Assembly: GCA_013151415.1 (NCBI GenBank)
Contig: JAADII010000175.1
Span: forward strand, 10,352 to 48,133
Length of the DNA: 37,782 bases
Reading direction: 5' to 3'
Source: Chloroflexota bacterium
GTDB lineage: Bacteria; Chloroflexota; Anaerolineae; J102
The notes beneath the pieces were generated by a model, which was not told the origin of the DNA, did not search any database, and saw only the letters and a list, made by a program, of their open reading frames with translations. Positions 15,405-37,658 of this stretch are shown here, piece by piece; position 1 is the first letter of the stretch, and every line of letters begins with the position of its first letter. The translations under genes and the position numbers were made by a program.

Positions 15405-16628
15405 ATGGCTGTATTATCTCCCCCTGTTGGTGTGTCCGAAGACCCCATTCTCAACGCTTTGAAGGGCCAAGACTCCATTACCGCTCATGAATTGTATCAG
15501 ATCATGAGCCGTCCCAACAATGCATTTATTCTGGACGTGCGCCAGCCCGAGGAATTCGAGGCATGGCGCATCGAGGGACGATACACGCCAGAAACCGTCA
15601 ATATACCCTATTTTCAGTTCTTCGATGAGGATAGCGGCGCGCTGGAGCGCGTGCCCAGAAGCGCGGATTTGGTGATTGTGGTTTGTGCACAGGGCGCGGC
15701 AAGTGATCTTGTGGCCTCGCTGTTGGATGACGAAGGCTATCGCGCGGTGAATCTGACCGATGGCATGGAGGCCTGGGGCGATTATTACGCGCGCCATCCC
15801 ATTGTCGAAACCGAATCATATAGCATTTACCAGATCGACCGCCCCGCGCGCGGGTGCCTGAGCCATGTGCTTATTAGCGAAGGCGAGGCCGCGATCATCG
15901 ATCCCCTGCGCCATACCGATCAGTATCTCGAACTCATCGGTGAGAAAGGGGCCGAGCTTCGGCTGCTGCTCGATACGCACGCCCACGCCGATCACATCAG
16001 CGGCGGCTTTCATCTGCAAGAGCAAACCGCCGCGCCTTATTACTTGCATCCCTACGACGGCATCCATCCATTCGACATGCTCCCCGCGCGCAAACCTTAT
16101 CACATGCTGGATGACGGCATGACTTTTCGGGTGGGCGGTTTCACCATCGAGGTGATCCACACGCCGGGGCACACGTTGGGGCAGGTGAATTTCTTGGCCA
16201 CGGCGAGCGATGGCAGCCAATATCTCTTCACGGGCGACAATATCTTCATAGAGAGCTTTGGACGGCCCGATCTGGGTGGCCAGGGCGAGCGTTGGGCGCC
16301 ACTGGTGTATGAGACCATCTTCGAAATTATTAAACAACGCGTTCCCGATGAGGCTCTCCTGTTGCCCGGCCATTACGCTCGAGCGGACGAAGCCAATGAA
16401 GACGGCTCTTTCGCCAGACCTTTGGCCGCGGTGTGGCGCGAAAACAAGGGTCTGCAACACGCAGACCGCGAAGCATTCATTCAGTATGTCCTCAGTCATT
16501 TGCCTTTCATGCCCGAACAATACATCGAGATCAAGCGCGTAAACGCCGGTCTCAGCGAGCCGGACGAAGAGGCGGCAAGCACGCTGGAACTGGGCAAGAA
16601 TATTTGCGCGCTCAGTGACGCTTATTGA
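15405..16628 (+). CDS. Rhodanese-MBL fusion, persulfide-dioxygenase-like
   Basis: The 407-residue protein has an N-terminal rhodanese domain (about 24-132) with catalytic Cys94 in the loop CAQGAAS, then a metallo-beta-lactamase domain (about 138-390). The MBL metal ligands are THAHADH (His192, His194, Asp196, His197), His256 in TPGHT, Asp278 in TGD and His323 in PGHY, a pattern like ETHE1 persulfide dioxygenases. Those iron enzymes use O2 to turn glutathione or other persulfide into sulfite; rhodanese moves sulfane sulfur. Known natural fusions (PRF, CstB) put MBL first; here the order is reversed. AGGAGG before the ATG fixes the start. It is the first gene of the sulfur operon, ten bases before the next gene. 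A plain hydrolase role cannot be excluded. Confidence 0.85.
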   Translation: MAVLSPPVGVSEDPILNALKGQDSITAHELYQIMSRPNNAFILDVRQPEEFEAWRIEGRYTPETVNIPYFQFFDEDSGALERVPRSADLVIVVCAQGAASDLVASLLDDEGYRAVNLTDGMEAWGDYYARHPIVETESYSIYQIDRPARGCLSHVLISEGEAAIIDPLRHTDQYLELIGEKGAELRLLLDTHAHADHISGGFHLQEQTAAPYYLHPYDGIHPFDMLPARKPYHMLDDGMTFRVGGFTIEVIHTPGHTLGQVNFLATASDGSQYLFTGDNIFIESFGRPDLGGQGERWAPLVYETIFEIIKQRVPDEALLLPGHYARADEANEDGSFARPLAAVWRENKGLQHADREAFIQYVLSHLPFMPEQYIEIKRVNAGLSEPDEEAASTLELGKNICALSDAY

Positions 16629-16638
16629 GTGAGGCTTT

Positions 16639-18324
16639 ATGAACTACGGATTCGTCATCGACAATCGCAAATGCATTGGTTGTCACGCCTGTTCGACGGC
16701 CTGCAAAAGCGAGAATGAAGTGCCTTTAGGCGTCTATCGCACCTGGGTCAAGTATGTCGAGACCGGGGTCTACCCGGACGCGCGGCGACATTTCCAGGTG
16801 ACGCGCTGCAACCATTGCGCGAACCCGCCCTGTGTGCGCATTTGCCCGGTCACGGCCATGTATCAGCGGCATGATGGCATCGTGGAGTTCGATCCCGCCA
16901 TCTGCATCGGCTGCAAAGCCTGTATGCAGGCCTGTCCTTACGACGCCATCTACATCGACCCGAACACGCACACCGCGGCCAAGTGCCATTTTTGCGCGCA
17001 TCGCGTCGAGGTGGGGTTGGAGCCGGCCTGCGTGGTGGTGTGCCCCGAACACGCCATTATCTCCGGCGATATGGATGACCCCAACTCGGAGATCAGCCGC
17101 ATCTTGGCCACGCACGAAGTGGTGGTGCGCAAGCCCGAGCAGGGCACCGCGCCCAAGCTTTTTTACATCGAGGGCAACGATGTGGCGCTGCATCCCACGG
17201 CCACCGAACGCGCGCCCAAGACCTTTCTCTGGGCCGATGTGATTCCTCTGCACGGCAAACCCGATCACAATGATCACAACGGCCGCGCCCAACCTCACGC
17301 GCAGCATGAGCTGGCCCTCTGGAACGACAGCCCCGCGCCGGCCGCGCATTCGGGGACGCCCATCCGCACGCCGCAAACGCAGGGCGACCCCGCCAACGGC
17401 CCCATTCAGTTTGGCGGTCGCATGGCCGGGCACATGGTGCAAACCAGTTACAACGCGCAGCATAAAATACCCTGGCATTGGCCCGTTCCCGCTTATCTGG
17501 TGACCAAAGGCATTGCGGCCGGGGTGTTTTTTGTGCTCAGTCTGGGCGTGTTGTTCAATCTTTTCGATTTCGATCCCCTGTTTTTCCTAACGGGCGGATT
17601 CCTGAGCCTGCTTTTCCTCGGCGTGACCACGCTTTTGTTGATCTACGACCTCGACCGACCGGAACGCTTTTTCAGCATTCTCTTCCGGCCGCAGTGGAAG
17701 AGTTGGCTGGCTCGCGGCGCGTTCCTCTTGGTGGGATTCACGGTTGTGGTCGGGTTGTGGTGGCTGGCCGAGTTGGCCGCGTATTTCGGCTTTCTGGCGC
17801 CTTCGGTGGTGCAAATGGCGCGGGTTCCCGCGGCCATCGTCGGCGGCCTGCTCGCGGTGGGAACGGCCATCTACACGGCGTTCCTTTTCGGACAGGCCGA
17901 GGGCCGCGACTTGTGGCAAAGCGGGTTGTTGCCCTTCCATTTGGTGGTGCAAGCGTTCATGGTGGGCAGTGGAACCCTGCTCATCGCGGCCGCGTTCATG
18001 CCTGCGCCCAACGGCCTGGTCTCGACGGCGGTTATCGCATTTGGCCTTTCGCTCATCGTTGATCTCTTTATCACGCTGGTGGGCGAATTTGGCATGCCTC
18101 ACGCCAGCGAAGTGGCCGCGAAGGCCGCGCACGAGATCAGCCACGGCCATTACAAGCGCCATTTCTGGTGGGGCGCAATCCTGGTGGGCCACGTCATCCC
18201 CTTGATTCTGCTGTTCACGGGCCTCCCCCTGGCCGCGGCCCTGGCCGGACTGGCAGCGATCATCGGCCTTTACTTCTACGAATACGCCTTTGTCATGGCG
18301 CCTCAGGAGATACCTAACAGCTAA
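16639..18324 (+). CDS. Fused four-cluster ferredoxin and NrfD-like membrane subunit
   Basis: The 561 residues combine two subunits that are usually separate. Residues 1-190 are a DmsB/PsrB/SoeB-type electron-transfer protein with four cysteine quartets: 12-15-18-22, 57-60-65-69, 89-92-95-99 and 116-119-131-135. Each should bind 4Fe-4S. A His/Pro/Ala-rich hydrophilic link (about 195-285) follows. Residues 285-555 hold about eight transmembrane segments of NrfD/PsrC type, the quinone-reactive anchor. The protein would wire the molybdoenzyme encoded next to the quinone pool. There is no N-terminal signal, which agrees with a cytoplasm-facing complex. GTGAGG precedes the ATG. The fusion fits a PsrBC or SoeBC role; the direction of electron flow cannot be read from sequence. 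Confidence 0.88.
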
Positions 18325-18343
18325 GCCTTTTTGCCTTATCATC

Positions 18344-18374
18344 TTGACATTGTCAACAGATTCATTGTCAACAG
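18344..18374 (+). promoter_or_regulatory. Paired 12-base direct repeats before the molybdoenzyme gene
   Basis: cattgtcaacag occurs at 18348-18359 and again at 18363-18374, a 15-base period. The first copy overlaps the palindrome ttgac-att-gtcaa (18344-18356). The element sits in the 59-base gap just before the start codon. It could be a regulator-binding site or an RNA-level element; nothing else supports a function. Confidence 0.35.
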
Positions 18375-18383
18375 GATCATCGT

Positions 18384-21452
<3,069 letters not shown>

Positions 21453-21552
21453 CCGGGAGCATCTGGACCGGTTGCAACGCGATTTTCAACCCGCACACGC
21501 GGCTCAACGCTGTATAGCCTACAGCCATCGCGGCCATAATGAGGTAAAATTC

Positions 21553-21580
21553 AGGAGCGTGGAGTTTTCTCCGCGCTCCT
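21553..21580 (+). promoter_or_regulatory. Strong 12-bp hairpin in the leader of the CstB-like gene
   Basis: aggagcgtggag and ctccgcgctcct pair over 12 positions (one G-T pair) around a tttt loop, ending 36 bases before the ATG at 21617. The bases after it (aaaatgc) are not a T-run, so it is not a standard plus-strand terminator. It could block read-through partly, protect a processed 3' or 5' end, or control translation of the last gene. Confidence 0.6.
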
Positions 21581-21616
21581 AAAATGCTTGTTTATTTCCG
21601 TTTCAAGGAGAACGTT

Positions 21617-23041
21617 ATGTGGTTTGAAACCATTATCCGTGAAGAGACGGGCTGCGCGGCCTATATGGTCGGTTGCCAACGCACCGGCGAGTGCATGGTG
21701 TTCGACCCCCTGTGGGACATCCAGCCCTATCTCGACATGGCGAAAGAAAAGAAATCGCGAATCCGCTACGTGATCGACTCGCACAGTCATGCGGATCACG
21801 TCTCGGGCGCGCGACGTCTGGCCGAGGCCACGGGCGCGGAGCTGATCCTGCCCGAACTGGCCGACATCACCTACGAGGCCACGCGCGTCAAGCACGGCGA
21901 CATGATCCGCATGGGCGGCGTGGGCATCGAGATCGTGCATGTGCCCGGCCATCGCCCTGAGCAGATCAACGCGCTCATCTACGATTTCCCGCGCGGGGAC
22001 GAACCCTGGTTCATTCTCACTGCCGACTTCGTGCTGGTGGGCGATGTGGCCCGGCCCGACCTGGCCCAGCCCGGTGAGGAGGGCGCGCCTGTGCTCTACG
22101 ACGTGTCCATCCCCCGCTTCTTGAACCTGCCCGATCATGTCGAGGTTTATCCCGGCCATCTTGCCGGCTCGACCTGAGGACGCGTCACCAGTGGCAAGGT
22201 TGTCACGACGGTTGGGTATGAGCGGCGCTACAATCCGGCGCTGAACTTCAAAGATCGGGACGCGTTCGTGGCCTATATGCAGGAGGATCAGCCCGTCAAA
22301 CCGGCCAACATCCTCAACATTGTGGCCACCAATCAGGGACGCTTGCCCCTGACCATGGAAACGCCGGTGGCGAAACCGTTATCGCCGCAACGCGTGGCCG
22401 AACTGATCGAGCAAGGGCACATCATCGTCGATGCGCGCTCGACGGCCGAATTCGGAGCCGAACACATTCGCGGCGCGTTCAATATCCAGCTTTCGAGCAA
22501 GGAGTTCGAGCAACGCGTGGGCTGGATGACGCCCGCCGACGCGCCCATCATCCTGGTGACCAACACAGCCGAAGAGGCCCAGCGAGCCATCTACAACATG
22601 GCCTTCATCGCCCTGGACAGTCGCGTGGCCGGCTATCTGGACGGCGGCATGGACGCATGGATCGAATCAGGCCATCCGGTGGAAAGCGCGCCCCAGATAG
22701 ATATTCATGACCTGTATCATCGCCTGTCCAGCAACGGCCTGCAGGTGCTGGATGTGCGCGACAAGGAGGAGTGGGAAGAGGGACACATCGCCGGCGCTCA
22801 CTTCATGCCCTACACCTCGCTGGTTCCCCAGCTCGATGTGCCGGCCCGCATCGGCGAATTGCCTTTCTCGCCCGACCAAAGCATCGCGGTGGTCTGCGCC
22901 ACAGGCAAGCGTTCGAGCACGGCCGTGAGCGTGTTGCTGCGCGAGGGATATCGTAAGCTTTACAACGTGGTGGGCGGCATGACGGCTTGGAAAGCGGCCG
23001 GTTTGCCCATGGTGGATGAGGACGGCGAGCCGGTGGAATAA
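21617..23041 (+). CDS. cstB: CstB-like persulfide dioxygenase/sulfurtransferase, candidate selenoprotein (in-frame UGA = Sec187)
   Basis: Read through one TGA at 22175-22177, this is a 474-residue protein laid out like Staphylococcus CstB (about 444). The MBL domain (1-187) has ligands SHSHADH (His56, His58, Asp60, His61), His112, Asp137 and His181. A rhodanese-like domain (about 255-352) lacks the Cys (VTNTAEEA). A rhodanese domain (about 362-465) has Cys427 in VVCATGKRSS. The family motif after the last His is PGHxAGSxCG; here it reads PGHLAGST-UGA-GR, so the stop replaces the conserved Cys. Codons after the TGA still encode the family segment TVGYERRYNPAL, with no further stop. AAGGAG precedes the ATG. 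If UGA is not recoded, the gene is a truncated MBL plus an orphan rhodanese with a GTG start at 22268 and no ribosome site. Confidence 0.8.
22175..22177 (+). other. In-frame UGA at a conserved Cys position, candidate selenocysteine codon
   Basis: This TGA is the only stop within the 475-codon frame 21617-23041. It is one base change from a Cys codon and sits at the family Cys. TGA ends many other genes here (recD2, metG, nth-side VOC), so it is not generally reassigned to Trp. Confidence 0.75.
22178..22212 (+). promoter_or_regulatory. Candidate bacterial SECIS element
   Basis: Immediately after the UGA the RNA can fold into a lower stem CGUC/GACG (22183-22186 with 22207-22210), a 4-nt 5' bulge ACCA, an upper stem GUGGC/GUCAC (22191-22195 with 22202-22206, one G-U), and a 6-nt loop AAGGUU (22196-22201). 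The loop starts 18 nt after the UGA. In E. coli fdhF the 6-nt loop AGGUCU starts 17 nt after the UGA. Such an element recruits SelB with Sec-tRNA. Folding was done by eye; no energy was computed. Confidence 0.65.
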
Positions 23042-23248: not shown

Positions 23249-23662
23249 ATGCAAAAGCGCGAATTCAGTGGTCCGGTCGCCACATTGACTGCTACAAACG
23301 ATGTTTTGGTTTCACCTCTTTCGCCAGAAGAAGTGGAGCAGCTTTTACGCGGAATTCAAAAAGCGTATATTCTTCCACACTCTAACGATGTCGTCCGGTT
23401 CCTGCGCGAGCATCCTTCACTTATCGAGATCGTTCAAAAGGCCGCGGTTGCTTTGCGGCAAATATTTGGATTCGAGGCTCCGCTCACACTTGAACTATTC
23501 CACGATCCCGACACCGAGGATACAGAGCTTTTCGCGCTTGTTCATAGTGACGAACCCGTAGACGCGGCGCTGGCTAAATTGCAAATGTTCGATGAGACAT
23601 GGTTCCTCGATCAGCAGCCATTGATCGATGGTCTTTTCAATGTTGATGTCGTGTTCTCATGA
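23249..23662 (+). CDS. Hypothetical protein, partner of a HEPN gene
   Basis: The 137-residue acidic product is not recognised. It has an N-terminal block SPLSPEEVEQLLRGIQKAY, a predicted helical middle, and a C-terminal part with WFLDQQPLIDGLFNVDVVF that looks like an alpha/beta domain. Its last four bases overlap the ATG of the HEPN gene (ATGA at 23659-23662), so the two are translated together, the usual layout of toxin-antitoxin pairs. HEPN toxins are often paired with a nucleotidyltransferase (MNT), but the G-S-x10-D-x-D motif of that family is missing here. AGGAGG lies before the ATG. The sulfur-operon terminator separates it from the genes upstream. Confidence 0.7.
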   Translation: MQKREFSGPVATLTATNDVLVSPLSPEEVEQLLRGIQKAYILPHSNDVVRFLREHPSLIEIVQKAAVALRQIFGFEAPLTLELFHDPDTEDTELFALVHSDEPVDAALAKLQMFDETWFLDQQPLIDGLFNVDVVFS

Positions 23663-24036
23663 GTTTTGACTGGACGAACTATATTCGGCTCGCCGAGGCC
23701 CTGGAACGCGAAGCCGGTCTTTTTTCTGATGAGGAGGCTTGTTTGCGCTCCGCCATCAGTCGCGCCTATTATGGCGCGTTTGGTTTGGCGAGAGATGTCG
23801 CCGTATCCCAGGATGGTCTAATTCTCTCTCGTAGCCCCAAAGATCACGTCCGGGTGATTGCTCACTTTCGCCGTTCGTCTCAAAAGACGCGACGGCGGAT
23901 CGGCCTTGATCTGGATCGGTTGAGAAGGGTGCGAAATCGAGCGGATTACGAAGCGCTTCTTCTCAAGCCGAAGCAAACCACGGCCACCGCTCTACGCCGC
24001 GCTCAGGGAATCGAGCGTGAACTCGATCGTTTGTAA
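23659..24036 (+). CDS. HEPN-domain protein (possible RNase toxin)
   Basis: The 125-residue product is a single helical HEPN domain, with AISRAYYGAFGLARD in the first half and RRVRNRADYEALL in the second. The second block is the site where catalytic HEPN RNases have R-x4-6-H; here the His position is Tyr, as in many HEPN proteins of the PF05168 type, so cleavage activity is uncertain. It overlaps the upstream gene by four bases, which supports a two-gene toxin-antitoxin or regulatory module. Starting at ATG 23659 gives the typical domain start. The DUF2283 gene follows after 30 bases. Confidence 0.75.
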   Translation: MSFDWTNYIRLAEALEREAGLFSDEEACLRSAISRAYYGAFGLARDVAVSQDGLILSRSPKDHVRVIAHFRRSSQKTRRRIGLDLDRLRRVRNRADYEALLLKPKQTTATALRRAQGIERELDRL

Positions 24037-24336: not shown

Positions 24337-27300
24337 ATGAAGAATCATATGATACAAAGAAACGAGCAGAGCAGTCCCGTCCAAACTTACGAACGCCTCC
24401 ATGCCATTGCACCCCGTTTTTTGAAAAAGGTGCAACATAGCGCACGGACTGCGCATAATGAGGCCGAATTTGAGCGGGATATGAACAACGCCATCGAGGA
24501 GGTGGCTCGTAGTTTGGGCGTCGATTTGCTCTTTCGTCAACAATACACCCTTGCTACCGGACGCGCGGACGCGGTCTACAATCGCTTCGTCATCGAATAT
24601 GAACCTCCGGGCTCGCTGCGCGCGAACTTAGGTCACGGCCACACCAAACACGCGGTGCAACAAGTAAAAGATTATCTCGCGGGCCTGGCCGGAAAAGAAC
24701 GTCATGATCGAGACCGCCTTTTGGGAGTGGCGTTTGACGGTCATTTCTTCATTTTTGTACGGTATCATGCCGGTCATGTCATCGTCGAAGAACCGTTGGT
24801 TGTGACTGCAGGTTCGGTCGAGCGTTTTTTGCGCTCCCTGTTTTCACTTTCATCGGGCCGCGCCTTGATTCCCGAAAACCTGGTGGAGGACTTTGGCCAC
24901 CGAAATCTATTGTCGCACCAGGTGACGCGAGCGCTTTACAATGCATTGGAAGATCGCAGTGACGATTTGACGGCCAAACTTTTCGCCCAATGGCAGCTTT
25001 TTTTCAGCGAGGTGGCCGGATATGAAGCGGCTTCAGGTCGCCTGAAGCACAAAAAACAACTTCAGTCCTTTATGCGAGGCATGGGGTTGAATCCCACTAC
25101 AGTGGACGCGCCTCGTTTTTTCTTTGCCCTCCAGACCTATTTCTCCTTCCTGGTCAAGAATATTGCCCGCCTGGTGCTCCAAGCCTATGCCGGCGGCGCA
25201 TTTGGCGCCACACCGTTAACCACCATCGCCAACCTGCGCGGGGAGGATTTACGCCGCGAACTGGAAAACATGGAGAGCGGCGGCATTTTTCGCGCCCTGA
25301 GATTGAAAAATCTTTTGGAAGGCGATTTCTTTTCCTGGTATCTGAACGCCTGGGATGAGGAAATTGAAGTGGCGCTGCGACAAGTGCTATCACGGTTGGC
25401 CGAATACAATCCTGTGACGGTACAAGATGATCCCTACTCGGCTCGCGACCTGCTCAAAAAGCTTTATCACTATCTGTTGCCGCGCGAGATTCGGCATGAT
25501 CTGGGCGAATTTTATACGCCTGATTGGCTGGCCGAGCGTCTTCTAATGCAATTAGGCGAGCCATTGTTCCAAATGCCTCGGCCCGGAGCCAGGGTGCCCA
25601 CTCCCAACAAACGTTTGCTCGATCCGGCTTGCGGTTCGGGCACGTTCCTGATTCTGGCCGCTCGCGCGCTTAAGGCCAATTGCTTTCAGGCCGGGTTGGC
25701 CGAAGCCGACACGCTGGACGTAATCTTGCGCAACATCGCCGGCATCGACCTAAATCCCCTGGCCGTAATGGCGGCCCGGGTCAACCTCTTGCTCGCCGTG
25801 GCCGATCTGTTGCCCTATCGTCGCGGTGAGGTGGAGCTTCCCATTTACCTGGCCGACAGCATCCTCACGCCAAGCCGGGGCGACAATCTATTCGAGCAAG
25901 ACCGCCGCATACTGGAAACCGCGGTGGGTCGGTTGCCCGTGCCCGATGTGATCGACACTCGGGCCGAGATGGAGAAGCTGACCGATTTGCTCGAGGAATA
26001 TGTGCGAGGGGAATTTGCGCTCGACGCCTTTTTGGCGCGCTGTCGCCAAGACCTCCCCGACGTGGTTGCCAACCCACACAGCGAAGCAGTGCTGCAAGAG
26101 TTATTCGAACGATTGAGCGATTTGCACAGACGGGGGATGGATGGCATTTGGGCGCGGGTGCTCAAGAATGCGTTCATGCCCTTGTTTTTGCAGCCTTTCG
26201 ATTACGTGGTGGGCAATCCGCCCTGGATCAATTGGGAGACGTTACCGCCCGGATACCGGGAACAGGTGGCTCCGCTATGGAAGGAATACGGTCTGTTTCA
26301 ACACAAAGGTTTCGATGCGATATTGGGCAAGGCCAAAGATGATCTTTCCGCGCTGATGACTTATGTGGCGGCCGATCGTTTTTTGAAAGATGGTGGCAAG
26401 CTGGGCTTTGTAATTACCCAAAGCGTGTGGAAGACCGCGGGTGGGGGACAAGGCTTTCGCCGCTTTCGAATCGGCGCGAAAGGCGCACATCTGCGTATAT
26501 TGCATGTGGACGATTTGAGTAGCATCCAGGTCTTCGAGGGCGCGAGCACACGCACCAGCGTGTTTGTTCTGCAAAAGGGCGAAGCCACCCGCTACCCGCT
26601 CCAATACACCTATTGGAAGAAGACGACCCGGGGCAAAAGGCTGGATTATGATAGCACGCTGGAAGAAGTGTTGGAACAAACCAAGCAATTACAATTTCTT
26701 GCTGCTCCGGTAGATACGGATAATCTAACTAGTGCCTGGCTGACAGCGAGGCGAAATGCTATTAGTGCACTGAGAAAAGTCCTTGGCAAGTCACCGTATC
26801 GCGCTAGAGAAGGGGCAAATTCTGGTGGAGCAAATGCAGTTTTCTGGCTTGAGATTCTGGCCGAGCGGCCTGATGGTTTGGTGGTTGTTCGGAACGTGAC
26901 CGAAGGAGCCAAACGCAAGGTAGAGGCCGTAACCGTGGAATTGGAGCCGGATTTGCTTTATCCGCTGTTGCGAGGTCGCGACGTGAAGCGGTGGCAAGCC
27001 GAGCCCAGATACCATTTGTTACTTACCCACCGGGAAGGGGATCGGCTCAATGCCATCCCCGAAGAGGAAATGCAGCGCTATTATCCAAAGACCTGGGCTT
27101 ACCTCAAACGCTTCGAGCAGCCCTTGCGCGAACGCTCCGGCTTCAAGCGCTACTTCACCCGCAAGGATAAAAAGACGGGCCAGATGATCGAAACCGGACC
27201 GTTTTATTCGATATTTAATGTAGGAGACTATACTTTTGCTCGTTGGAAAGTTGCGTGGCCTTGGATATCGAAATCACTTGTCGCAGCCGTGGTCGGCGAA

Positions 27301-27705
27301 TATCATCCGAGACAAATCGTTGTCCCCGAACACAACACTTCTTTTGTTAGTTTTGAAACAATCGAAGAAGCCCATTTTTTCTGTGCTTGCTTCAATTCTA
27401 GCATGGCGAATCTAGCAGCGCTTTCCTCATATTCGGGGGGTGGGGGAGGAATCGCTTCTCCTAAAGTAGTCGAAAGAATACGCGTGCCGAAGTATTTGCC
27501 TCTGGATTCCAATCATCAGCAGCTTGTACAACTTTCTATACACGCGCACGAACTTGCTCCAAAAGCTTATGCGGGTGACAAAGCGGCTCAGGCCGAGCTG
27601 CGAAAGGTGGAGGAGGAAGTGGACCGGGCCGCGGCCGCATTGTGGGGGCTGACCGAACAAGAATTGGCCGACGTGCGGGCGAGCTTGGAGGAATTGAGGG
27701 GGTGA
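24337..27705 (+). CDS. Large N6-adenine DNA methyltransferase with nuclease-like N-terminus (Type IIG/PglX-like)
   Basis: The 1122-residue protein has an N-terminal region (about 40-180) with a PD-(D/E)xK-like block GRADAVYNRFVIEYEPPG (Asp78, Glu87, Glu89), where the usual ExK Lys is absent. A helical section (200-400) follows, then an N6-adenine methylase core: motif I DPACGSGTF (429-437), GIDLNPLAVMAARVNL, and motif IV NPPW (627-630). The C-terminal part should hold the target-recognition domain (about 780-1070). It methylates adenine with SAM and may also cut DNA, as Type IIG enzymes do, or methylate only, as PglX does. The start is uncertain (24337 or 24349; no clear ribosome site). It is the first of seven close-set genes. 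Stretches near 26690-26830 and 27200-27560 are AT-richer than the rest. Confidence 0.88.
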   Translation: MKNHMIQRNEQSSPVQTYERLHAIAPRFLKKVQHSARTAHNEAEFERDMNNAIEEVARSLGVDLLFRQQYTLATGRADAVYNRFVIEYEPPGSLRANLGHGHTKHAVQQVKDYLAGLAGKERHDRDRLLGVAFDGHFFIFVRYHAGHVIVEEPLVVTAGSVERFLRSLFSLSSGRALIPENLVEDFGHRNLLSHQVTRALYNALEDRSDDLTAKLFAQWQLFFSEVAGYEAASGRLKHKKQLQSFMRGMGLNPTTVDAPRFFFALQTYFSFLVKNIARLVLQAYAGGAFGATPLTTIANLRGEDLRRELENMESGGIFRALRLKNLLEGDFFSWYLNAWDEEIEVALRQVLSRLAEYNPVTVQDDPYSARDLLKKLYHYLLPREIRHDLGEFYTPDWLAERLLMQLGEPLFQMPRPGARVPTPNKRLLDPACGSGTFLILAARALKANCFQAGLAEADTLDVILRNIAGIDLNPLAVMAARVNLLLAVADLLPYRRGEVELPIYLADSILTPSRGDNLFEQDRRILETAVGRLPVPDVIDTRAEMEKLTDLLEEYVRGEFALDAFLARCRQDLPDVVANPHSEAVLQELFERLSDLHRRGMDGIWARVLKNAFMPLFLQPFDYVVGNPPWINWETLPPGYREQVAPLWKEYGLFQHKGFDAILGKAKDDLSALMTYVAADRFLKDGGKLGFVITQSVWKTAGGGQGFRRFRIGAKGAHLRILHVDDLSSIQVFEGASTRTSVFVLQKGEATRYPLQYTYWKKTTRGKRLDYDSTLEEVLEQTKQLQFLAAPVDTDNLTSAWLTARRNAISALRKVLGKSPYRAREGANSGGANAVFWLEILAERPDGLVVVRNVTEGAKRKVEAVTVELEPDLLYPLLRGRDVKRWQAEPRYHLLLTHREGDRLNAIPEEEMQRYYPKTWAYLKRFEQPLRERSGFKRYFTRKDKKTGQMIETGPFYSIFNVGDYTFARWKVAWPWISKSLVAAVVGEYHPRQIVVPEHNTSFVSFETIEEAHFFCACFNSSMANLAALSSYSGGGGGIASPKVVERIRVPKYLPLDSNHQQLVQLSIHAHELAPKAYAGDKAAQAELRKVEEEVDRAAAALWGLTEQELADVRASLEELRG

Positions 27706-27710
27706 TAAAA

Positions 27711-28733
27711 ATGACAAGAAATGAGCCCAGATCACAATCCTCCCCAAATCTGTGGATGCGATCCGTGTCTTTTGTTGCACTTCGTGACCTCCTCGCTTTT
27801 ATTGCAGAACGTCCCGAAGGTTTGCGAGCGAAAGATATGGAAGAATTGGCGCGGCAAGAGCGAAAACTACGCACTCGAGATGGCCGTATTCCGTCCAAAA
27901 CAACAGTCTATCATTATCGAACCATCTTGTACCGATTGGGTATTTTGACTTATCACCGAAGACGCTATATAGTGAATCAAAGTAATCCAATTGTTCGCAC
28001 GCTAGTACAGCGTTTGAAACCTGGTTCATCTACTCTCTCCGTTCATGAACGCCGTCTTTTTTCTGAATTGGTAGTGGCTAATGTTGATTGTCGTTACTAT
28101 TTTTTCGACCTTTTCATGCCAAAACAGGACGTTTATGTACTCGAAGATTTCATCGCGCATGGCCGTCGCGTTGCATGGAAAAGTTACACTGATTCCAGTC
28201 GTCGTATGGTGCATCTTCGAAATCTGAATATCGAAAAGCGAGAGCGTTGGCTTCAAACAGAAGATGAATTTCAAGCCATTCTATACGGAATACGATACTG
28301 GGCGCGTAACGAGTTGGAATTCATAGATGAATTGTTCCTCGAGGATTTGGGAGGCGTGATGTTTCCTGTAACACTTACAGGGCCAGTTCCGGCCCCTGAA
28401 ATTACAGTCGCCTTGGCGAAAGCAGTAGATGATTCTCGAGAATGGACGATATTATCTGTACGTAAACTTGTCTACATGTGGGGGCCTCGCTATCATATTT
28501 CTTTGAAACGTATATTTCAAACACTATTATCCATATATAGAGACTACTCTGAGTATATCGTATTGATTCCGACATCAGAAGCATTTGCAACGATAACGGC
28601 TACTTCACCCGGTGCTGGAAACTATCAGCTACGCAGTTATTTGCGTGATTTCGAGGGCCGCTACATCTCACATATCCGTGTCCATCGAAAACTGAAGGAG
28701 GCGCTTCAATGGACGATGCTTACGCCCGCCTAG
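27711..28733 (+). CDS. Winged-helix protein of the defence-like cluster, unknown function
   Basis: The 340-residue product begins with a probable winged-helix DNA-binding region (about 15-90: ALRDLLAFIAERPEGLRA, then TVYHYRTILYRLGIL and the RRRYIVN wing). The rest is not recognised; it has many Tyr, Arg and Glu residues and no nuclease or ATPase motif that I can see. I start at ATG 27711, five bases after the methyltransferase stop, with a GGGGG-type ribosome site inside the end of that gene. Its last 25 bases overlap the ATPase gene, so the two are translationally linked. It is markedly AT-richer than the genes to either side, as are the next two, suggesting separate ancestry within the cluster. 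It may target the ATPase or regulate the operon. Confidence 0.7.
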   Translation: MTRNEPRSQSSPNLWMRSVSFVALRDLLAFIAERPEGLRAKDMEELARQERKLRTRDGRIPSKTTVYHYRTILYRLGILTYHRRRYIVNQSNPIVRTLVQRLKPGSSTLSVHERRLFSELVVANVDCRYYFFDLFMPKQDVYVLEDFIAHGRRVAWKSYTDSSRRMVHLRNLNIEKRERWLQTEDEFQAILYGIRYWARNELEFIDELFLEDLGGVMFPVTLTGPVPAPEITVALAKAVDDSREWTILSVRKLVYMWGPRYHISLKRIFQTLLSIYRDYSEYIVLIPTSEAFATITATSPGAGNYQLRSYLRDFEGRYISHIRVHRKLKEALQWTMLTPA

Positions 28734-29884
28734 AACTATGTTTCAACCCGTTTGAGCCAGCGGCAAGTGGTGTCCCCGTTTCAGGCGCTCTATGGGTTCC
28801 AGAGAGATGGTCTCAACCGCTCCAAAGATTTGTGGAGACTATGGAGGGCACTTCAGGAACGAAAGCTTATGCAATTTCCGGCGAATATGGAAGTGGCAAG
28901 ACTTACTTACTACGCTGGCTAGAGCGGGTGGAGTTGCCGCGACATCGAATTCGTCCCTTTTTCTTTGACAATCCCGGTGTGCGGTTCTACGACCTTGCCA
29001 ATACGCTGCTTCGTCAGATTGGGCGAGAAGAATTCGCAAAATCGCTTTGGGAATTCCTAAATCCTAAGTTACCCGGCTTTCAAGGTTCCCTATTTGAGGA
29101 TTCCTTTCAAGCATGGCTACTGAGTGTTAAAAAACACCGTCGCGAAAAAGAAGCGATCCGAGTCCTGTCCGAAGCAATGCAGACGAAGGGAGTCGCAGAT
29201 GATGAGGAGATTCGTTACAAATTGGGTCGATTAATTGTGGAAACATATGATCGACCTTATTTTGAGTACAAAGATTTCATCGCGGGCCGCCAAGGTTCTC
29301 TCGTGGCGGAAAAGGAGGAAGCGCCTTATTTCGCCACTATTCTTCGATCGCTTCGTCTTATTGGGAGTGCAGAGGCGTTGGCTTTCTTAATGGATGAGTT
29401 TGAAGAAATATCACTCCAAAAACGTTTAACCAAACGTCAGGCTCATGATTATTTGGCTACTATGAAACGACTGATCGGTCTTACCGAACATGAACAATTC
29501 TGGATTATTGTGGCTATGACACCTCAAGCGGCTGAGGTAACGGCAAAACTGGAACCAGCGCTTTGGCAACGGTTTGTCAGCCAGGGTAAACATCAGTTCA
29601 AGATTCCTCCATTGAACGACCAAGAGGCGAGAGAACTGGTTCGCAGACGCCTGAAAAATGCACGGCCTGAAGAAACGACAGCCAAGCCCCTCTTTCCATT
29701 TCCTGAAAACATGATGGAATTGTTTAGAAAAGATATTAAATCATCTCCACGAAAATTGGTCAAAGTATGCAGCCTTGCCATCGCTAAAGCAATTCAAGCA
29801 CCTGAGCAAGTGCAAATACCGTTTGGTGCTGAGTATCTTAGACAGATCCAAAAAGAACTTTATCCCCCTCCTTCAGTCGAGTAG
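28709..29884 (+). CDS. AAA/STAND-like P-loop ATPase
   Basis: The 391-residue protein has Walker A GEYGSGKT (58-65) and Walker B LAFLMDEFEE (Asp229, Glu230), with a sensor-like stretch FWIIVAMTPQA and a C-terminal helical domain, a plan like ORC/Cdc6 and other AAA ATPases that load or move partners on DNA. The N-terminal NPFEP block before the P-loop is common in this type. The start overlaps the upstream gene by 25 bases and has a perfect AAGGAGG site. In the cluster it sits between the winged-helix gene and the PIN gene. It may be the sensing or motor component; similarity to a named system could not be tested. Confidence 0.82.
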   Translation: MDDAYARLELCFNPFEPAASGVPVSGALWVPERWSQPLQRFVETMEGTSGTKAYAISGEYGSGKTYLLRWLERVELPRHRIRPFFFDNPGVRFYDLANTLLRQIGREEFAKSLWEFLNPKLPGFQGSLFEDSFQAWLLSVKKHRREKEAIRVLSEAMQTKGVADDEEIRYKLGRLIVETYDRPYFEYKDFIAGRQGSLVAEKEEAPYFATILRSLRLIGSAEALAFLMDEFEEISLQKRLTKRQAHDYLATMKRLIGLTEHEQFWIIVAMTPQAAEVTAKLEPALWQRFVSQGKHQFKIPPLNDQEARELVRRRLKNARPEETTAKPLFPFPENMMELFRKDIKSSPRKLVKVCSLAIAKAIQAPEQVQIPFGAEYLRQIQKELYPPPSVE

Positions 29885-29905
29885 TCAACGAGGAGCAACC
29901 GAGAG

Positions 29906-30727
29906 ATGAATTCCGATGCCCTCACTTTTCGTCCTACGATATTTCTTGACACAAATGCTTTGCAATTCGTTAGCTCATACCTTCGCCATGCCGAAAAGCT
30001 GGGATTGCCTCCCTTCAAGGGAGTGGGAAGACCAGACTATGAGAAGATTCAGACTACTCTCAGAGAGAAATTACCGAGAGGTGTTGTTGATTCGATCATG
30101 AAAGGTTGTCGTACTCTTGCGTTTCTCCAAGAACTGGCAGGTGACGATGAAATCAGTGGAGATATTTATGCTTCTCGATTAAGTAGGGCAGAGCTTCTTT
30201 TTGGAATCTTGGACGGACAGGCGCATGCTCGTTTAGCGCGAGAAGGTTTATCTTATAGAATGCGTCAACGCTTGAGGGATTTGAGTGAGTTGGTTTCGAG
30301 ATATTTAGAAAGACAAGATTATGAAGACCTACTACAAGAAGTAAATGGATTGTTCGAAATGCTTAAGGAGAAAGATGGGATTCGTATCGAATGGGTTGAG
30401 GAGAGTATTAGCGATTTTTCTTCAATAACTGTATTCTCAGAACTTCTACAAAGCAACGTTTTCCTTGACGTATTGGATTGTTGGATGTACGGCTGCGCCG
30501 TGGCTATACAAGCAGAAAAGATTATTACCTTTGATAATTATTTCAAACGCGTTATCAATCGAATACATAATGCACAAGGCGAAGAAGACTGGCTATATAT
30601 TCAATCTATCATAACAGATGAACTGGAGCGCTTAAATCCTGTGGCATCTCCTGTCACCTTGTCTTTGCCAGCAGCTTTTGATCCGCCTAGGACAGCCCCC
30701 TCCCTTTGGGAAGCAGACCATGCCTAA
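29906..30727 (+). CDS. PIN-domain nuclease-like protein
   Basis: The 273-residue product shows the acidic residues of a PIN fold in order: Asp15 in TIFLDTNALQF, Glu96 in SRAELLFG, Asp188/Asp191 in FLDVLDCWMYG, and Asp210 in IITFDNYF. PIN proteins are metal-dependent RNases or flap-type DNases. Between strands there is a long helical insertion (about 100-180), so it is larger than VapC toxins (about 130 residues) and no antitoxin gene is next to it. GAGGAGC before the ATG supports the start. It overlaps nurA by eight bases. In this cluster it is a candidate effector nuclease. Confidence 0.78.
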   Translation: MNSDALTFRPTIFLDTNALQFVSSYLRHAEKLGLPPFKGVGRPDYEKIQTTLREKLPRGVVDSIMKGCRTLAFLQELAGDDEISGDIYASRLSRAELLFGILDGQAHARLAREGLSYRMRQRLRDLSELVSRYLERQDYEDLLQEVNGLFEMLKEKDGIRIEWVEESISDFSSITVFSELLQSNVFLDVLDCWMYGCAVAIQAEKIITFDNYFKRVINRIHNAQGEEDWLYIQSIITDELERLNPVASPVTLSLPAAFDPPRTAPSLWEADHA

Positions 30728-31838
30728 CCCCTTTCAACCGCTCCAAGGCGCTCTGAACGCCCTGATCGCGAACGCTCAGGTCTTGCCCGCCACTGGCCAG
30801 GCCGTAATCGACATGGTCACGCCTGATCTGGAGGAAATCTATGATCAACGTACGACCGGCCAGGCCGTGATCGAAACGGTGTGGGAAACCGCTCCACGGG
30901 GGCTTTATCGCACCATACGGCCCATTCCGCGCTCCGAAGAACACGCCCTTCGTTACTTCGTGGATGGCTCGGCAAAGACCTATTTCATCGGCACGGTGCT
31001 GGAACAAGACCGCTCGACGCCGGTGCAAGTATCGCAGGTTGGAGCGGCCATGGTGCAACGAGAAGACGACGGTCGTATTCGAGTGGCCAACGCCAAACGA
31101 ACTATCTTGCTCACATTGGAGAAAAGTCAGGTTTCGGAGCAGCTTTGGCGGGAGGTTGAACGGGCCGTCCAGGGCGTGCCGGGTTATCAATTATGCGACA
31201 GCGCTACCAACAACAAGTACGCCGACGCCATGAATTTGCAAGAAGCCCGACCGCGGGGCGCCCATCGCGCCAACTGGCACATGCGTGAAATGGAAGTCGA
31301 ACTTGCTCGCGTCATCCCTCGCGATGGGGACGCCTGGCTGGTCATCGACGGTAGTTTAGGCAACGAATTCGAAACCTGGCGCGGCGCGCCACTCATCGGA
31401 GTCGCGAAAACTTTTCGTCGAGATAGCCGTTTCGAGTTAGGCAGTGGTCCTCGAGCCAAAAAACTCAACTTGTTTGGCCTACTCAAAGACTTGCAAGAAA
31501 ACCAGCGCACCATTGTGTTTCCTCGCAGCAATGAGGGCAAAATCGTGTTTTGGTACGTGCGCATTCGACCTCAAAAGGGACTGGACTATCCCCTGATGGG
31601 AGTTGTCAAAGTGGAAATGCCCAATCCGGATCGAGAACCGGTGGATAGCGCTTTGATCGACCGCATCAGCGGCTGGCTCATTGCCGAACGCACCGTAACG
31701 CCCTACGGCCGAGATAGTCGTTGGCACGCGCACTTATATCCGATCTATATCGCCGAGCGCGTCATACGTTCGCAATTCTACTCCGAAGCCGTGCTGAAAT
31801 CAGGCATTCGCTGGCCGTTTCAGCTTGCTACTCCATGA
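30720..31838 (+). CDS. nurA: NurA-domain nuclease
   Basis: The 372-residue protein fits NurA, the RNase-H-fold nuclease that works with HerA on DNA ends. The motifs are VDGS (Asp82) in RYFVDGSAKTYF, Glu190 in WHMREMEVELARVI, IDGSL (Asp210), the block LIGVAKTFRRD, and the C-terminal HLYPIYIAERV with His338 and Tyr340. I start at ATG 30720, which overlaps the PIN stop by eight bases and has GGGAAG upstream. The HerA-like gene follows after 11 bases, confirming the pair. In archaea the pair resects breaks; in bacterial islands it is found in antiviral systems. Confidence 0.85.
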   Translation: MPNPFQPLQGALNALIANAQVLPATGQAVIDMVTPDLEEIYDQRTTGQAVIETVWETAPRGLYRTIRPIPRSEEHALRYFVDGSAKTYFIGTVLEQDRSTPVQVSQVGAAMVQREDDGRIRVANAKRTILLTLEKSQVSEQLWREVERAVQGVPGYQLCDSATNNKYADAMNLQEARPRGAHRANWHMREMEVELARVIPRDGDAWLVIDGSLGNEFETWRGAPLIGVAKTFRRDSRFELGSGPRAKKLNLFGLLKDLQENQRTIVFPRSNEGKIVFWYVRIRPQKGLDYPLMGVVKVEMPNPDREPVDSALIDRISGWLIAERTVTPYGRDSRWHAHLYPIYIAERVIRSQFYSEAVLKSGIRWPFQLATP

Positions 31839-31849
31839 GGTGTTCGATA

Positions 31850-33535
31850 ATGGCAAAACAACCAGGCAAACCCATCGGACGCGGCTCCGCCACCGAGCGC
31901 GATCCAAACACCGCAGAGAAATTCAAATTCTGGATTCGGCCCGGGCAAATGGTTAACCCCTTCGACATCATCGCGGCCGAACATTTTCCCGCGCAGGCCG
32001 GAGCGGAATCCAGCTACACTTTTGGCCTGGTGACCAACATTCAGCACATCACCGATGCAGCCGGACATTTGGCCAATTTCATCTCCAATGACTTTGGCGA
32101 AGAGGTGGAGGAAACGCCCCAAACCCCGCGCCAGGGAACCAATGTGGCCGAAGCCACCGTGCTTTCCAACAGCGCTGACATTTACATGCCGATTCAAAAT
32201 GAAGCGCGAGTCTATTTCGCGGACGAAGACAAGATTCATCTGGCTTTGGGTATCGACGGCATACCTCCGCAACGCCGCGTGCCGGCCGGCCTCATTCAGA
32301 TGAGCAACGGGACTCAAGCTGTGGCTTACCTCGACCGTGATTTTGTGCTCGGTCCCGAGGCGGGCCATGTCAACATTTCTGGCATTTCCGGCCTGGCCAC
32401 AAAAACCTCGTATGCTATGTTCCTCATTCAGTCATTGCTACAAAGCAGCGATCATGAAAACATTGCCGTCATCTTGTTGAATGTAAAGTACGATGACCTG
32501 TTGTCTATCCACGAACCGCGTAAGTTGCAGGACAAAGAGCATCAGATATGGCAAAGGTTGGGATTAAAGCCAGAGCCCTGGCCGGAGGAGCGCGTTCACT
32601 ATCTACTACCCAATGGCAAGCAGACGCATACTACCGGCCGGCCTAACTCCTTCGCGGACCCACCACCGCCTCATCAAGTCTATGCTTACGCGCTGCGCGA
32701 ATCGGCCAATAAGCTCGATCTGCTCTTCTCCAATATTCCCGATCCAAACGGAACTATTAGCTCCGTCATCGGCGAAATCACGACAGGAATCGAGAATCGA
32801 GAGCGGGCCTGGCAAGCCGTTCACACATGGGATGATTTGTTGAGCAAACCGCCGTTGGTGCAACAGCGCATTCCCCAAAGATTCCGCAATATCCACGCTT
32901 CCAGTGTGGGCCGTTTTCTCCGGCTTTTGCGCCGCGTGGTCAAGACGCGACAATCCGGCATTTTTGTGTCTCAACTCTCAACACGTATGACGACCATCGA
33001 AAAGGAAATCGGCAATATCAAAGGAGGACACACCTATGTGGTGGACATTGCTCGACTCACCCAGGAGGAACAGACTCTTGTGTTCGGGGACGTGTTGCGC
33101 ACCGTCTATGGTTTGTACTCCGGCGAAACGTTGCCTCTCGATGACTATCAGCCGCCTGCAAAGGTCATCGTCTTTGTGGACGAATTGAACAAATACGCTC
33201 CGGCGCGAGGCCAAGGTGATCGCTCTCCCATCCTCGCACAAGTTTTGGACGTCGCCGAACGCGGACGTTCGTTTGGCATTATTCTTTTCTCAGCCCAACA
33301 GTTTCTCAGTGCGGTGCACGATCGCGTGACAGGGAATTCAGCAACCAAAGTGCTGGGGCGCACTGACAGCGCGGAAATCAACGCAGGCAACTACCGATTT
33401 CTTGCTCAGGACATCAAGTATCATTTAACGCGATTGGAAAAAGGGGAATTGATCTTATCCCATCCCATTTATCGCCAACCGGTGAAGATTTCATTTCCCC
33501 CGCCCCCTTATCGACAGGGAAGGGCAAAGCATTAA
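31850..33535 (+). CDS. herA: HerA-like hexameric translocase ATPase with altered P-loop
   Basis: The 562-residue protein has an N-terminal HAS-type barrel (about 25-165) and a RecA/FtsK-like ATPase. The Walker A position reads GISGLATKT (178-186), where Thr replaces the last Gly (GxxxxTKT in place of GxxxxGKT). Walker B is VFVDELNKYAPA (Asp444, Glu445). The motif FSAQQFLSAVHDRVTGNS and the C-terminal Arg-containing KVLGRTDSAEI fit HerA. It would pump DNA and drive the NurA nuclease. I start at 31850 with GAGGTG eight bases upstream; the frame is open from 31721 but inside nurA. The altered P-loop could be a lineage variant or a loss of ATP binding. Confidence 0.85.
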   Translation: MAKQPGKPIGRGSATERDPNTAEKFKFWIRPGQMVNPFDIIAAEHFPAQAGAESSYTFGLVTNIQHITDAAGHLANFISNDFGEEVEETPQTPRQGTNVAEATVLSNSADIYMPIQNEARVYFADEDKIHLALGIDGIPPQRRVPAGLIQMSNGTQAVAYLDRDFVLGPEAGHVNISGISGLATKTSYAMFLIQSLLQSSDHENIAVILLNVKYDDLLSIHEPRKLQDKEHQIWQRLGLKPEPWPEERVHYLLPNGKQTHTTGRPNSFADPPPPHQVYAYALRESANKLDLLFSNIPDPNGTISSVIGEITTGIENRERAWQAVHTWDDLLSKPPLVQQRIPQRFRNIHASSVGRFLRLLRRVVKTRQSGIFVSQLSTRMTTIEKEIGNIKGGHTYVVDIARLTQEEQTLVFGDVLRTVYGLYSGETLPLDDYQPPAKVIVFVDELNKYAPARGQGDRSPILAQVLDVAERGRSFGIILFSAQQFLSAVHDRVTGNSATKVLGRTDSAEINAGNYRFLAQDIKYHLTRLEKGELILSHPIYRQPVKISFPPPPYRQGRAKH

Positions 33536-33538
33536 CTC

Positions 33539-34795
33539 ATGTCTGGTTCATTGCCATCATTGCCGACCGGCTTCGAGTATCGCCTGGATTTATCCCGGCA
33601 TGTAACGCCGCGTCTCTTGCGTGACCAGGCCATCCATCGTTGGTTCTATTTTCCGCACAGTTTCTCGCCGCAACTGGTCCATATTCTCTTGGAAAAATGG
33701 GATGTTCCCTCCGGTGCATGGGTGCTGGACCCATTCGTTGGCGCCGGAACCACACTGTTGGCCGCTCGCGAGAAAGGGATTAATGCTCTGGGTATCGACC
33801 TCTCGCCTCTTTCGATTTTCGTGAGTAGGGCAAAAACGCGTCAATATGACTCGACGGAAATTTGCAAGGGTCTTGAATATGTTGAAAAAGCGATGCGAGA
33901 AGAACGGATGGTCGCCATAGATCGCCCGTCGCGACTTCAACGGGCCTTCACCGACGCTGAATACGCGATGCTGGCCCGAATTCGCCAGGCTATTGCGGAA
34001 CTTGCTCAATCCTCCCGCGACTTTCTTCTCCTGGCTTTGTTGCGCACTCAACGGCAATTCTCGCGAGCCGTTCCCGATGGCGGCTGGTTCCGATGGCGCG
34101 AATTGCCATCTTCAGAACAAGCAATTTGGCCAACATTTAGAAGAACGGTGGAGGAAATGCTCGGCGATCTGGCGGACACGCGACCTTACAAGGGGCTATG
34201 GACGGCGATCCGGCACGACGCACGCGCGCTCACTTCCTTGGCGACCAGGCATCCTTTTCTATTATCCGGTTGCCAGGCCATCATCACCTCGCCTCCCTAT
34301 CCCAATCGTCATGATTATAGTCGAATTTTTCAGATCGAATTATTGACGTTGGGACTGCAAGAACAAGATATCTTTGCCTTGCGCCATCATTCCCTCCGTT
34401 CCAACGTGGAAGCCCGAGCGCCCGAATACGCTCTTCCTCCTTTCGATTCTCCTCCTCAACTTATCGAAACCCTCAACCGCTTACCCGAAGATGCGGATCG
34501 TCGTATCGAACCCATGTTGCGGGGCTATTTCGAAGACATGAACGCCGTTCTTTACGCTACTTATCAAGCACTATCTCCCGGCGGTCACCTGGCCCTCGTT
34601 GTCGGCAATGTCCGTCATGCAGGCGTCATGGTTCCTGTGGACGTCATCTTACTCGAGATGGGTATGCGTCTGGGCTATCGGCCAGAAACATCCTGGGTGG
34701 CGCGCTTACGGGGTAACAGTGCCCAACAAATGGGTAGGTATGGCCGGATCCCGGCTCGAGAAAGTGTGGTCATCTTGCGAAAAGGCGACCATTAA
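33539..34795 (+). CDS. Second DNA methyltransferase (motif order I-IV, SPPY type)
   Basis: The 418-residue enzyme has motif I DPFVGAGTT (64-72), GIDLSPLS just after it, and catalytic motif IV TSPPY (250-254) in ITSPPYPNRHDY. SPPY is common among N4-cytosine methyltransferases, though some N6-adenine enzymes use it too, so the modified base is uncertain. About 180 residues between motifs I and IV are helical and may include target recognition. A late strand SPGGHLALVVGNVRH is motif V/VI-like. It begins three bases after the HerA-like stop and ends the cluster. With the first methyltransferase it gives the system two modification enzymes of different classes. Confidence 0.88.
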   Translation: MSGSLPSLPTGFEYRLDLSRHVTPRLLRDQAIHRWFYFPHSFSPQLVHILLEKWDVPSGAWVLDPFVGAGTTLLAAREKGINALGIDLSPLSIFVSRAKTRQYDSTEICKGLEYVEKAMREERMVAIDRPSRLQRAFTDAEYAMLARIRQAIAELAQSSRDFLLLALLRTQRQFSRAVPDGGWFRWRELPSSEQAIWPTFRRTVEEMLGDLADTRPYKGLWTAIRHDARALTSLATRHPFLLSGCQAIITSPPYPNRHDYSRIFQIELLTLGLQEQDIFALRHHSLRSNVEARAPEYALPPFDSPPQLIETLNRLPEDADRRIEPMLRGYFEDMNAVLYATYQALSPGGHLALVVGNVRHAGVMVPVDVILLEMGMRLGYRPETSWVARLRGNSAQQMGRYGRIPARESVVILRKGDH

Positions 34796-35772: not shown

Positions 35773-36566
35773 TGTCTCACCAAAGTGGCCTCGACGCGGG
35801 CTTTGTAGAGAATGCGGCGAAAAAGTCGGGCCGTGAGCAATCCGTAAATGAGGATGGACAGCATCATCATGGCCATGGAGAAAAGAATGTCCGCGACATC
35901 CCCGCCCGAAGATGCGCCGTGCAAGGCCCGCGCGGCCCAATAAGGCGGCAAAATATAGCTGAGGGGCGTGGTCCAACCGGGCAAGAGCGCGATGGGAAAG
36001 AGAAAACCGCTGAGAATATAAACCGGAAACTCAAGCCCGTTTTGCAGGCGGCGCACCTCGGGATTCAATACGAACAAGGGCGCAATGATCAGCGCGAAAC
36101 TGACATAGGCCGGGACAGTCAAAAGCAGGGCGAGCGCGAACCAACCGGGCCGGGCGATGGTGGGAAGCGCGCCGAACACCAATCCGGCCAGGGCGTAGGT
36201 CGCGACCATGGCCGACAACGATTGCAGTACATTGGCCAGCGTCTTGCCGATGACCACGATGTGCAAAGGAGCAGGTGTGGCCACCAACATCTCCAATGTG
36301 CCTGTCCAGCGTTCGCCGCTAATGGCCTGACCGCCGATGAACAGGGTCGTAGTCCACAACCCGGTCATGCCGCTGCCGACCACGATGTAAATGATGTCGT
36401 CGGGACCCTGGTCGCGTAGCATCCAAAACGCCATCAGAGCGATGATCATGGGCTGGATGACGATACCGAAGATGACAAAGCCGTCGGTGAGATTGTTGCG
36501 CAGGCTCATCTCGGCCGCGACGAGGATGACGCGCAGGTGGCGGCGCAGTTGGGTCAGCCGCTTCAT
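35769..36566 (-). CDS. ABC-2 type permease (first of pair)
   Basis: The 265-residue protein has six transmembrane helices, a first cytoplasmic stretch LRRHLRVILVAAEMSLRNN, and the ABC-2 block LPPYWAARALHG before the last helices. ISGERWTGTLEMLVATP is the typical coupling-region motif (E-x-x-x-G-T-L-E). The ATG overlaps the ATPase stop by four bases (ATGA at 36563-36566), and its own stop overlaps the next permease, so all three genes are translationally coupled. Confidence 0.9.
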   Translation of the reverse strand: MKRLTQLRRHLRVILVAAEMSLRNNLTDGFVIFGIVIQPMIIALMAFWMLRDQGPDDIIYIVVGSGMTGLWTTTLFIGGQAISGERWTGTLEMLVATPAPLHIVVIGKTLANVLQSLSAMVATYALAGLVFGALPTIARPGWFALALLLTVPAYVSFALIIAPLFVLNPEVRRLQNGLEFPVYILSGFLFPIALLPGWTTPLSYILPPYWAARALHGASSGGDVADILFSMAMMMLSILIYGLLTARLFRRILYKARVEATLVRQ

Positions 36567-37534: not shown

Positions 37535-37579
37535 GCGGAAATTAAAACATACCTCGTAGAAAGCGACAAAGGGGCAGTG

Positions 37580-37604
37580 GACGATGGGACGACAGGACGA
37601 TGGA
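37580..37604. repeat. Short GACGATGG-type repeat upstream of the ABC-2 operon
   Basis: This is an imperfect tandem of gacgatgg/gacgaca units, like 23053-23085. It lies about 45 bases upstream of the ATPase start (minus strand) and is non-coding. Confidence 0.5.
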
Positions 37605-37658
37605 GGGCGGCCGGCATGGCCATGCACGTCGGGGATTGCTTCGGCCCCCATCAATCTC

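Follow-up and report, generated by a model that had tools for sequence, protein, structure and literature searches.

A hairpin that very probably acts as a bacterial SECIS element in the gene of a CstB-like persulfide dioxygenase-rhodanese from Chloroflexota

The window, by which we mean the whole stretch of 37,782 nucleotides analysed here (contig JAADII010000175.1 of a Chloroflexota bacterium), carries a four-gene sulfur operon at 15405-23041. The last of the four genes forms a single frame only if an in-frame UGA is read as a residue (Table 1). A ribosome site, AAGGAG, lies directly 5' of its ATG. Counted from this ATG the product has 474 residues and selenocysteine would be residue 187 (Sec187); if the count starts at an upstream ATG at 21584, it would be Sec198. 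The molybdopterin oxidoreductase gene is found directly upstream of the UGA gene in seven relatives. Downstream of the operon the window holds genes that resemble a defence island (24337-34795 and 36566-37654): a type IIG restriction enzyme-methyltransferase, an AAA ATPase, a HerA-like ATPase, a DNA methyltransferase and a Mad3/AriA-like ATPase. Two small overlapping open reading frames (137 and 125 aa; 23249-24036) lie between the operon and these genes and have no match in Pfam or PADLOC.

Table 1. Features of the sulfur operon and of the UGA gene, in window coordinates.
Feature	Position	Strand	Remark
Rhodanese + MBL (persulfide dioxygenase-like) protein without Sec	15405-16628	+	same operon
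Fused 4Fe-4S and NrfD membrane subunit	16639-18324	+	same operon
Mo (molybdopterin) oxidoreductase, thiosulfate/polysulfide reductase (Phs/Psr) group	18384-21452	+	first gene upstream of the UGA gene
Candidate selenoprotein gene, CstB-like persulfide dioxygenase (MBL) + two rhodanese domains	ATG 21617 to TAA 23041	+	one frame if UGA is a residue
In-frame UGA, candidate selenocysteine codon	22175-22177	+	opposite Cys201 of S. aureus CstB; alignment of UGA and Cys homologues
Possible lower stem CGUC/GACG	22183-22186 with 22207-22210	+	5' bulge ACCA 22187-22190; present here, not conserved
Putative SECIS apical hairpin	22191-22206	+	stem 22191-22196 with 22201-22206, loop AGGU 22197-22200
Active-site Cys codon, C-terminal rhodanese (CATGKRS)	22895-22897	+	opposite Cys408 of CstB

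A domain search finds one MBL and two rhodanese domains in the product of the UGA gene. Among solved structures this product is closest to the MBL-rhodanese proteins 3tp9 and 3r2u, to which it aligns from end to end. In the deposited chain of 3r2u, Cys225 stands opposite the UGA and the rhodanese cysteine is residue 432. The chain starts with ...YFQSNA-M, apparently a tag of 24 residues, and without the tag the two positions become 201 and 408. These are the numbers that we take to belong to the two functional cysteines of S. aureus CstB, and because the numbering fits we identify 3r2u with that protein. Both residues are said to have roles in the S. aureus enzyme, in work of 2015 by Shen and colleagues. 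The metal-site motifs HSHADH, PGH and TAD are all intact in our product, and the Sec position lies in the MBL domain beside the metal site, six residues past the histidine of PGH. With one MBL domain, two rhodanese domains, Sec opposite Cys201 and a cysteine opposite Cys408, the product is most likely a CstB-type persulfide dioxygenase-rhodanese, for which O2-dependent oxidation of persulfides to thiosulfate is predicted.

The hairpin just past the UGA reads GUGGC-AAGGUU-GUCAC. An earlier note, made from the window sequence alone, had placed the loop AAGGUU at 22196-22201, after 18 intervening nucleotides and on a stem of 5 bp. Coordinates and spacing are right and the stem exists; if the A-U closing pair is included, it has 6 bp, and the loop becomes AGGU, starting 19 nt past the UGA. 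The same note had asked for RNA folding, which gives a mixed answer. The hairpin forms alone and persists in a context of 131 nt, where the fold is better than that of shuffled sequences (z -2.7), but over 45 nt its stability does not exceed chance (z -0.11; 88 of 200 shuffles are at least as stable). Since this energy is ordinary, we do not count single-sequence folding as evidence. Rfam scans, at the gathering cut-off and at an E-value of 10, returned no match. When the codons are recoded with the protein kept fixed, 1.6-19% of the recodings retain the 5-bp stem and 0-5% are equally stable.

The case for a functional RNA structure comes from comparison. The protein was first used as query against 150 relatives, which gave three further UGA forms and many Cys forms. 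A second search applied the pattern P-(G/A)-H-x-A-G-S-x-UGA-G to 396 genomes of the class and to wider genome contigs; the matches listed from the wider contigs were mostly chance matches, and the spread outside the class is a lower bound. Together there are at least 15 distinct UGA homologues and 26 with Cys in the same alignment column. If the UGA is numbered 1, the six pairs 17-32, 18-31, 19-30, 20-29, 21-28 and 22-27 form in all 15 UGA homologues, and RNAalifold returns exactly this helix. Pair 20-29 is GU in nine, GC in four, AU in one and CG in one; pair 18-31 is UA in 14 and CG in one. The stem-preserving covariation proposed earlier as a check is thus present, at two pairs only, and the independent events are few and come mainly from two homologues (L172 and L170). 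Shuffles and slid registers do worse; the closest control, a slide by -3, pairs 82.5% of cells with a nearly equal covariation score. Among the 26 Cys homologues each pair forms in only 5 to 16, and a common stem is absent. UGA relatives that lack the hairpin were looked for among the 15, and none was found. A better competing fold, the other result that would have spoken against the hairpin, is generally absent too, with one partial exception (L178), where the rival fold is 0.2 kcal/mol lower.

Not every detail of the proposed element is conserved. On the loop side A-A-G followed by G or U is invariant, and so is G24, the second base of the 4-nt loop. The GG pair emphasized in the earlier note is found in 11 of the 15; the remaining four have GU. 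The lower 4-bp stem with its 5' bulge does occur in the window, but it is not a conserved part of the element: two of its pairs hold in 13 of 15 homologues, where Val codons (GUN) and Thr codons (ACN) dictate them, and the remaining two vary. A conserved lower stem is therefore not supported, and a conserved bulged U could not be shown among the UGA homologues. Neither feature is required in the general model of a bacterial SECIS.

Stronger evidence than the few compensatory changes, as we read the alignment, is the constraint on synonymous sites. Codons +5 to +9 after the UGA show a synonymous difference of 0.027 against a gene mean of 0.551. No other among the 357 sliding segments compared across the gene is as low, and in Cys homologues these codons vary ordinarily. 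Over the hairpin codons pS is 0.041, compared to 0.68 upstream and 0.70 downstream. The variable codon +8 (Val, Ala or Phe) has U as its third base throughout, paired with A22. Covariation at pair 20-29 falls on second codon positions, and hence the RNA appears to force paired changes of amino acids (Gly/Val, Gly/Ala, Asp/Val and Ala/Gly).

The same genome has the full set for selenocysteine insertion: SelA, SelD, a tRNA-Sec with UCA anticodon and a complete SelB of 630 aa. Its selD and one fdhA also contain an in-frame UGA. In fdhA the hairpin is GGUCACC-GGUCU-GGUGACC, with the loop GGUCU 18 nt past the UGA, and in selD a candidate GGUUC loop lies 32 nt past it. The UGAs of fdhA and selD are found at L206, about 1699 (G000:C166), and at L202/L186 (G000:C192). 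Most of the 11 sampled genomes with the UGA gene have a clear tRNA-Sec and SelA; in one of them, G314, which is 78% complete, neither a clear tRNA-Sec nor a clear SelA was found. The machinery is also common among genomes of the class with Cys forms, so its co-occurrence with the UGA gene is consistent with selenocysteine but does not discriminate.

Could the UGA simply be a stop? Standard-code gene finding yields two open reading frames, 21584-22177 and 22268-23041, and MBL and rhodanese proteins also occur separately. One could thus argue for a split gene, with an MBL protein ending at 22177 and a rhodanese starting at GTG 22268, or for a pseudogene, and in both cases the hairpin would be incidental. 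Against this, purifying selection persists 3' of the UGA: the 30 codons between UGA and GTG are under selection like the rest of the gene (pN/pS 0.34) and align without gaps to Cys homologues. Moreover, the UGA is retained by 15 homologues, of which the most distant are about 50% identical, and the hairpin codons are uniquely constrained. We consider a true stop highly improbable. Even less credit is due to the idea that the UGA stands for another amino acid, either because the code as a whole has changed or through a suppressor tRNA. The frame is indeed open through the UGA, but several genes in the window end at UGA in the usual way, Cys is the only residue aligned with it and the Sec set of the genome is full. 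Having tested a split gene, a pseudogene and general reassignment, we reject them in view of purifying selection, hairpin constraint and the UGA stops in the window. Structure and constraint by themselves do not name a function, and a pausing, termination or regulatory element would show both. Such an element would hardly be expected 18-19 nt past a UGA, with a G within the first two loop bases, confined to UGA homologues and similar in geometry to the fdhA hairpin of the same genome; its chances seem very slim to us.

A more serious alternative concerns the enzyme. Selenocysteine insertion may be real, and the protein may nevertheless be a persulfide or polysulfide transferase for the adjacent Mo reductase instead of a dioxygenase that uses O2. 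The UGA gene follows the Mo-reductase and NrfD genes, with the Mo gene as its neighbour in those seven relatives too, and the operon encodes a second rhodanese-MBL protein. The intact metal-site motifs argue against a transferase, as do the closest solved relatives, which are MBL-rhodanese proteins and include 3r2u, CstB by its residue numbering. We think a transferase unlikely, though not so unlikely that it should be dismissed.

A bacterial SECIS is a hairpin that directly follows an in-frame UGA, from which 16-37 nt separate its apical loop (PMC10778597), and this small loop carries a conserved guanosine (PMC1088965). Here the distance is 18 nt to AAGGUU or 19 nt to AGGU, G24 is the conserved guanosine, and the stem is common to UGA homologues and gone where the codon is Cys. 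The in-frame UGA aligns with Cys, and the Sec machinery is in the same genome. Because of this machinery, the hairpin confined to UGA forms, and the compensatory and synonymous constraint, we are very confident that the earlier reading as a bacterial SECIS is correct and that the hairpin directs selenocysteine to the UGA of a CstB-type persulfide dioxygenase-rhodanese, in place of Cys201 of CstB. What the sequence itself establishes is the UGA/Cys site, the hairpin with its conservation and covariation, the Sec machinery and the operon. Beyond that level, we infer the following course of events. SelB carrying Sec-tRNA-Sec would dock on the apical loop, and selenocysteine would be delivered at the UGA instead of termination. 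In the enzyme, Sec would most likely take up sulfane sulfur and pass it on between the Fe(II) dioxygenase site and the cysteine of the rhodanese, a role that we presume from CstB biochemistry. Persulfides would in this way be turned into thiosulfate, within an operon that also encodes a reductase of the polysulfide/thiosulfate type.

The putative element itself is of a known kind. Like the SECIS of E. coli fdhF and that of fdhA in the same genome, it is a small stem directly past the UGA and within the reading frame, with a loop of 4-6 nt about 17-19 nt away and a G among the first loop bases. It differs in its loop, which reads AGGU or AGUU and is closed by an A-U pair, and in that conservation of the lower stem and of the bulged U could not be shown. 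The protein shares with S. aureus CstB (3r2u) and 3tp9 the MBL and two rhodanese domains from end to end, and with CstB the positions opposite Cys201 and Cys408. Unlike in CstB, however, Sec would replace Cys201, and the operon partners are the Mo reductase and NrfD subunits rather than cstA/sqr, the partners in the S. aureus cst operon (PMC5480029). Other selenoproteins also have a rhodanese domain (forms 1-5, TsoB and others), but here the Sec position is in the MBL domain, and matches to those families are far below their cut-offs.

By phylogeny all Sec forms fall into a single clade (support 100/100), which among the matches listed is mostly from Anaerolineae (Chloroflexota). At least three of its members are from MAGs that carry the label Acidobacteria or Gemmatimonadota, and each of these MAGs has a SelB match above the cut-off. 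UGA forms in such MAGs suggest either transfer between phyla or mislabelled contigs. These three forms are at L145 (3706), L060 (1666) and L052 (850). Within the class, the nearest relatives of the window's UGA gene, at 77-81% identity, belong to another family (f35), and sampled members of the genome's own family have distant Cys forms only. Three genes of the sulfur operon have their closest relatives in another family, whereas metG, adjacent on the same contig, is native, with 81-87% identity within its own family and about 53% with f35. Hence, it is likely that the sulfur operon was acquired horizontally together with its SECIS. The metG comparison also speaks against the gene having entered the genome bin by error.

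A review from 2026 covers 119 families and subfamilies of prokaryotic selenoproteins; no MBL or persulfide dioxygenase is named among them, and no rhodanese selenoprotein in its table is given with an MBL domain (PMC13188914). None of the NCBIfam selenoprotein models reaches its cut-off with our product. Text searches of open-licence papers for a selenoprotein among persulfide or sulfur dioxygenases gave no such protein, though an earlier report may exist elsewhere. The protein thus looks like an undescribed selenoprotein family. One could go further and suppose that Sec makes the persulfide dioxygenases of this family a selenium-based relay of persulfide to the neighbouring polysulfide/thiosulfate reductase, possibly independent of O2, and that the family, together with its SECIS, moves between families and phyla as part of a mobile sulfur operon. 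This extended picture is speculative, and we think it rather doubtful.

With this protein the selenoproteome gains a persulfide enzyme, one that handles H2S, in which Sec takes the place of a residue of known importance in CstB. Standard annotation stops at residue 186 and calls the remainder a separate rhodanese, and therefore the annotation of Sec-type CstB-like enzymes is probably wrong. The hairpin also provides a clean example from nature in which RNA structure dictates the choice of amino acid so that a single base pair is kept. The pair of Sec and Cys homologues offers a direct test of what selenium contributes to a persulfide enzyme.
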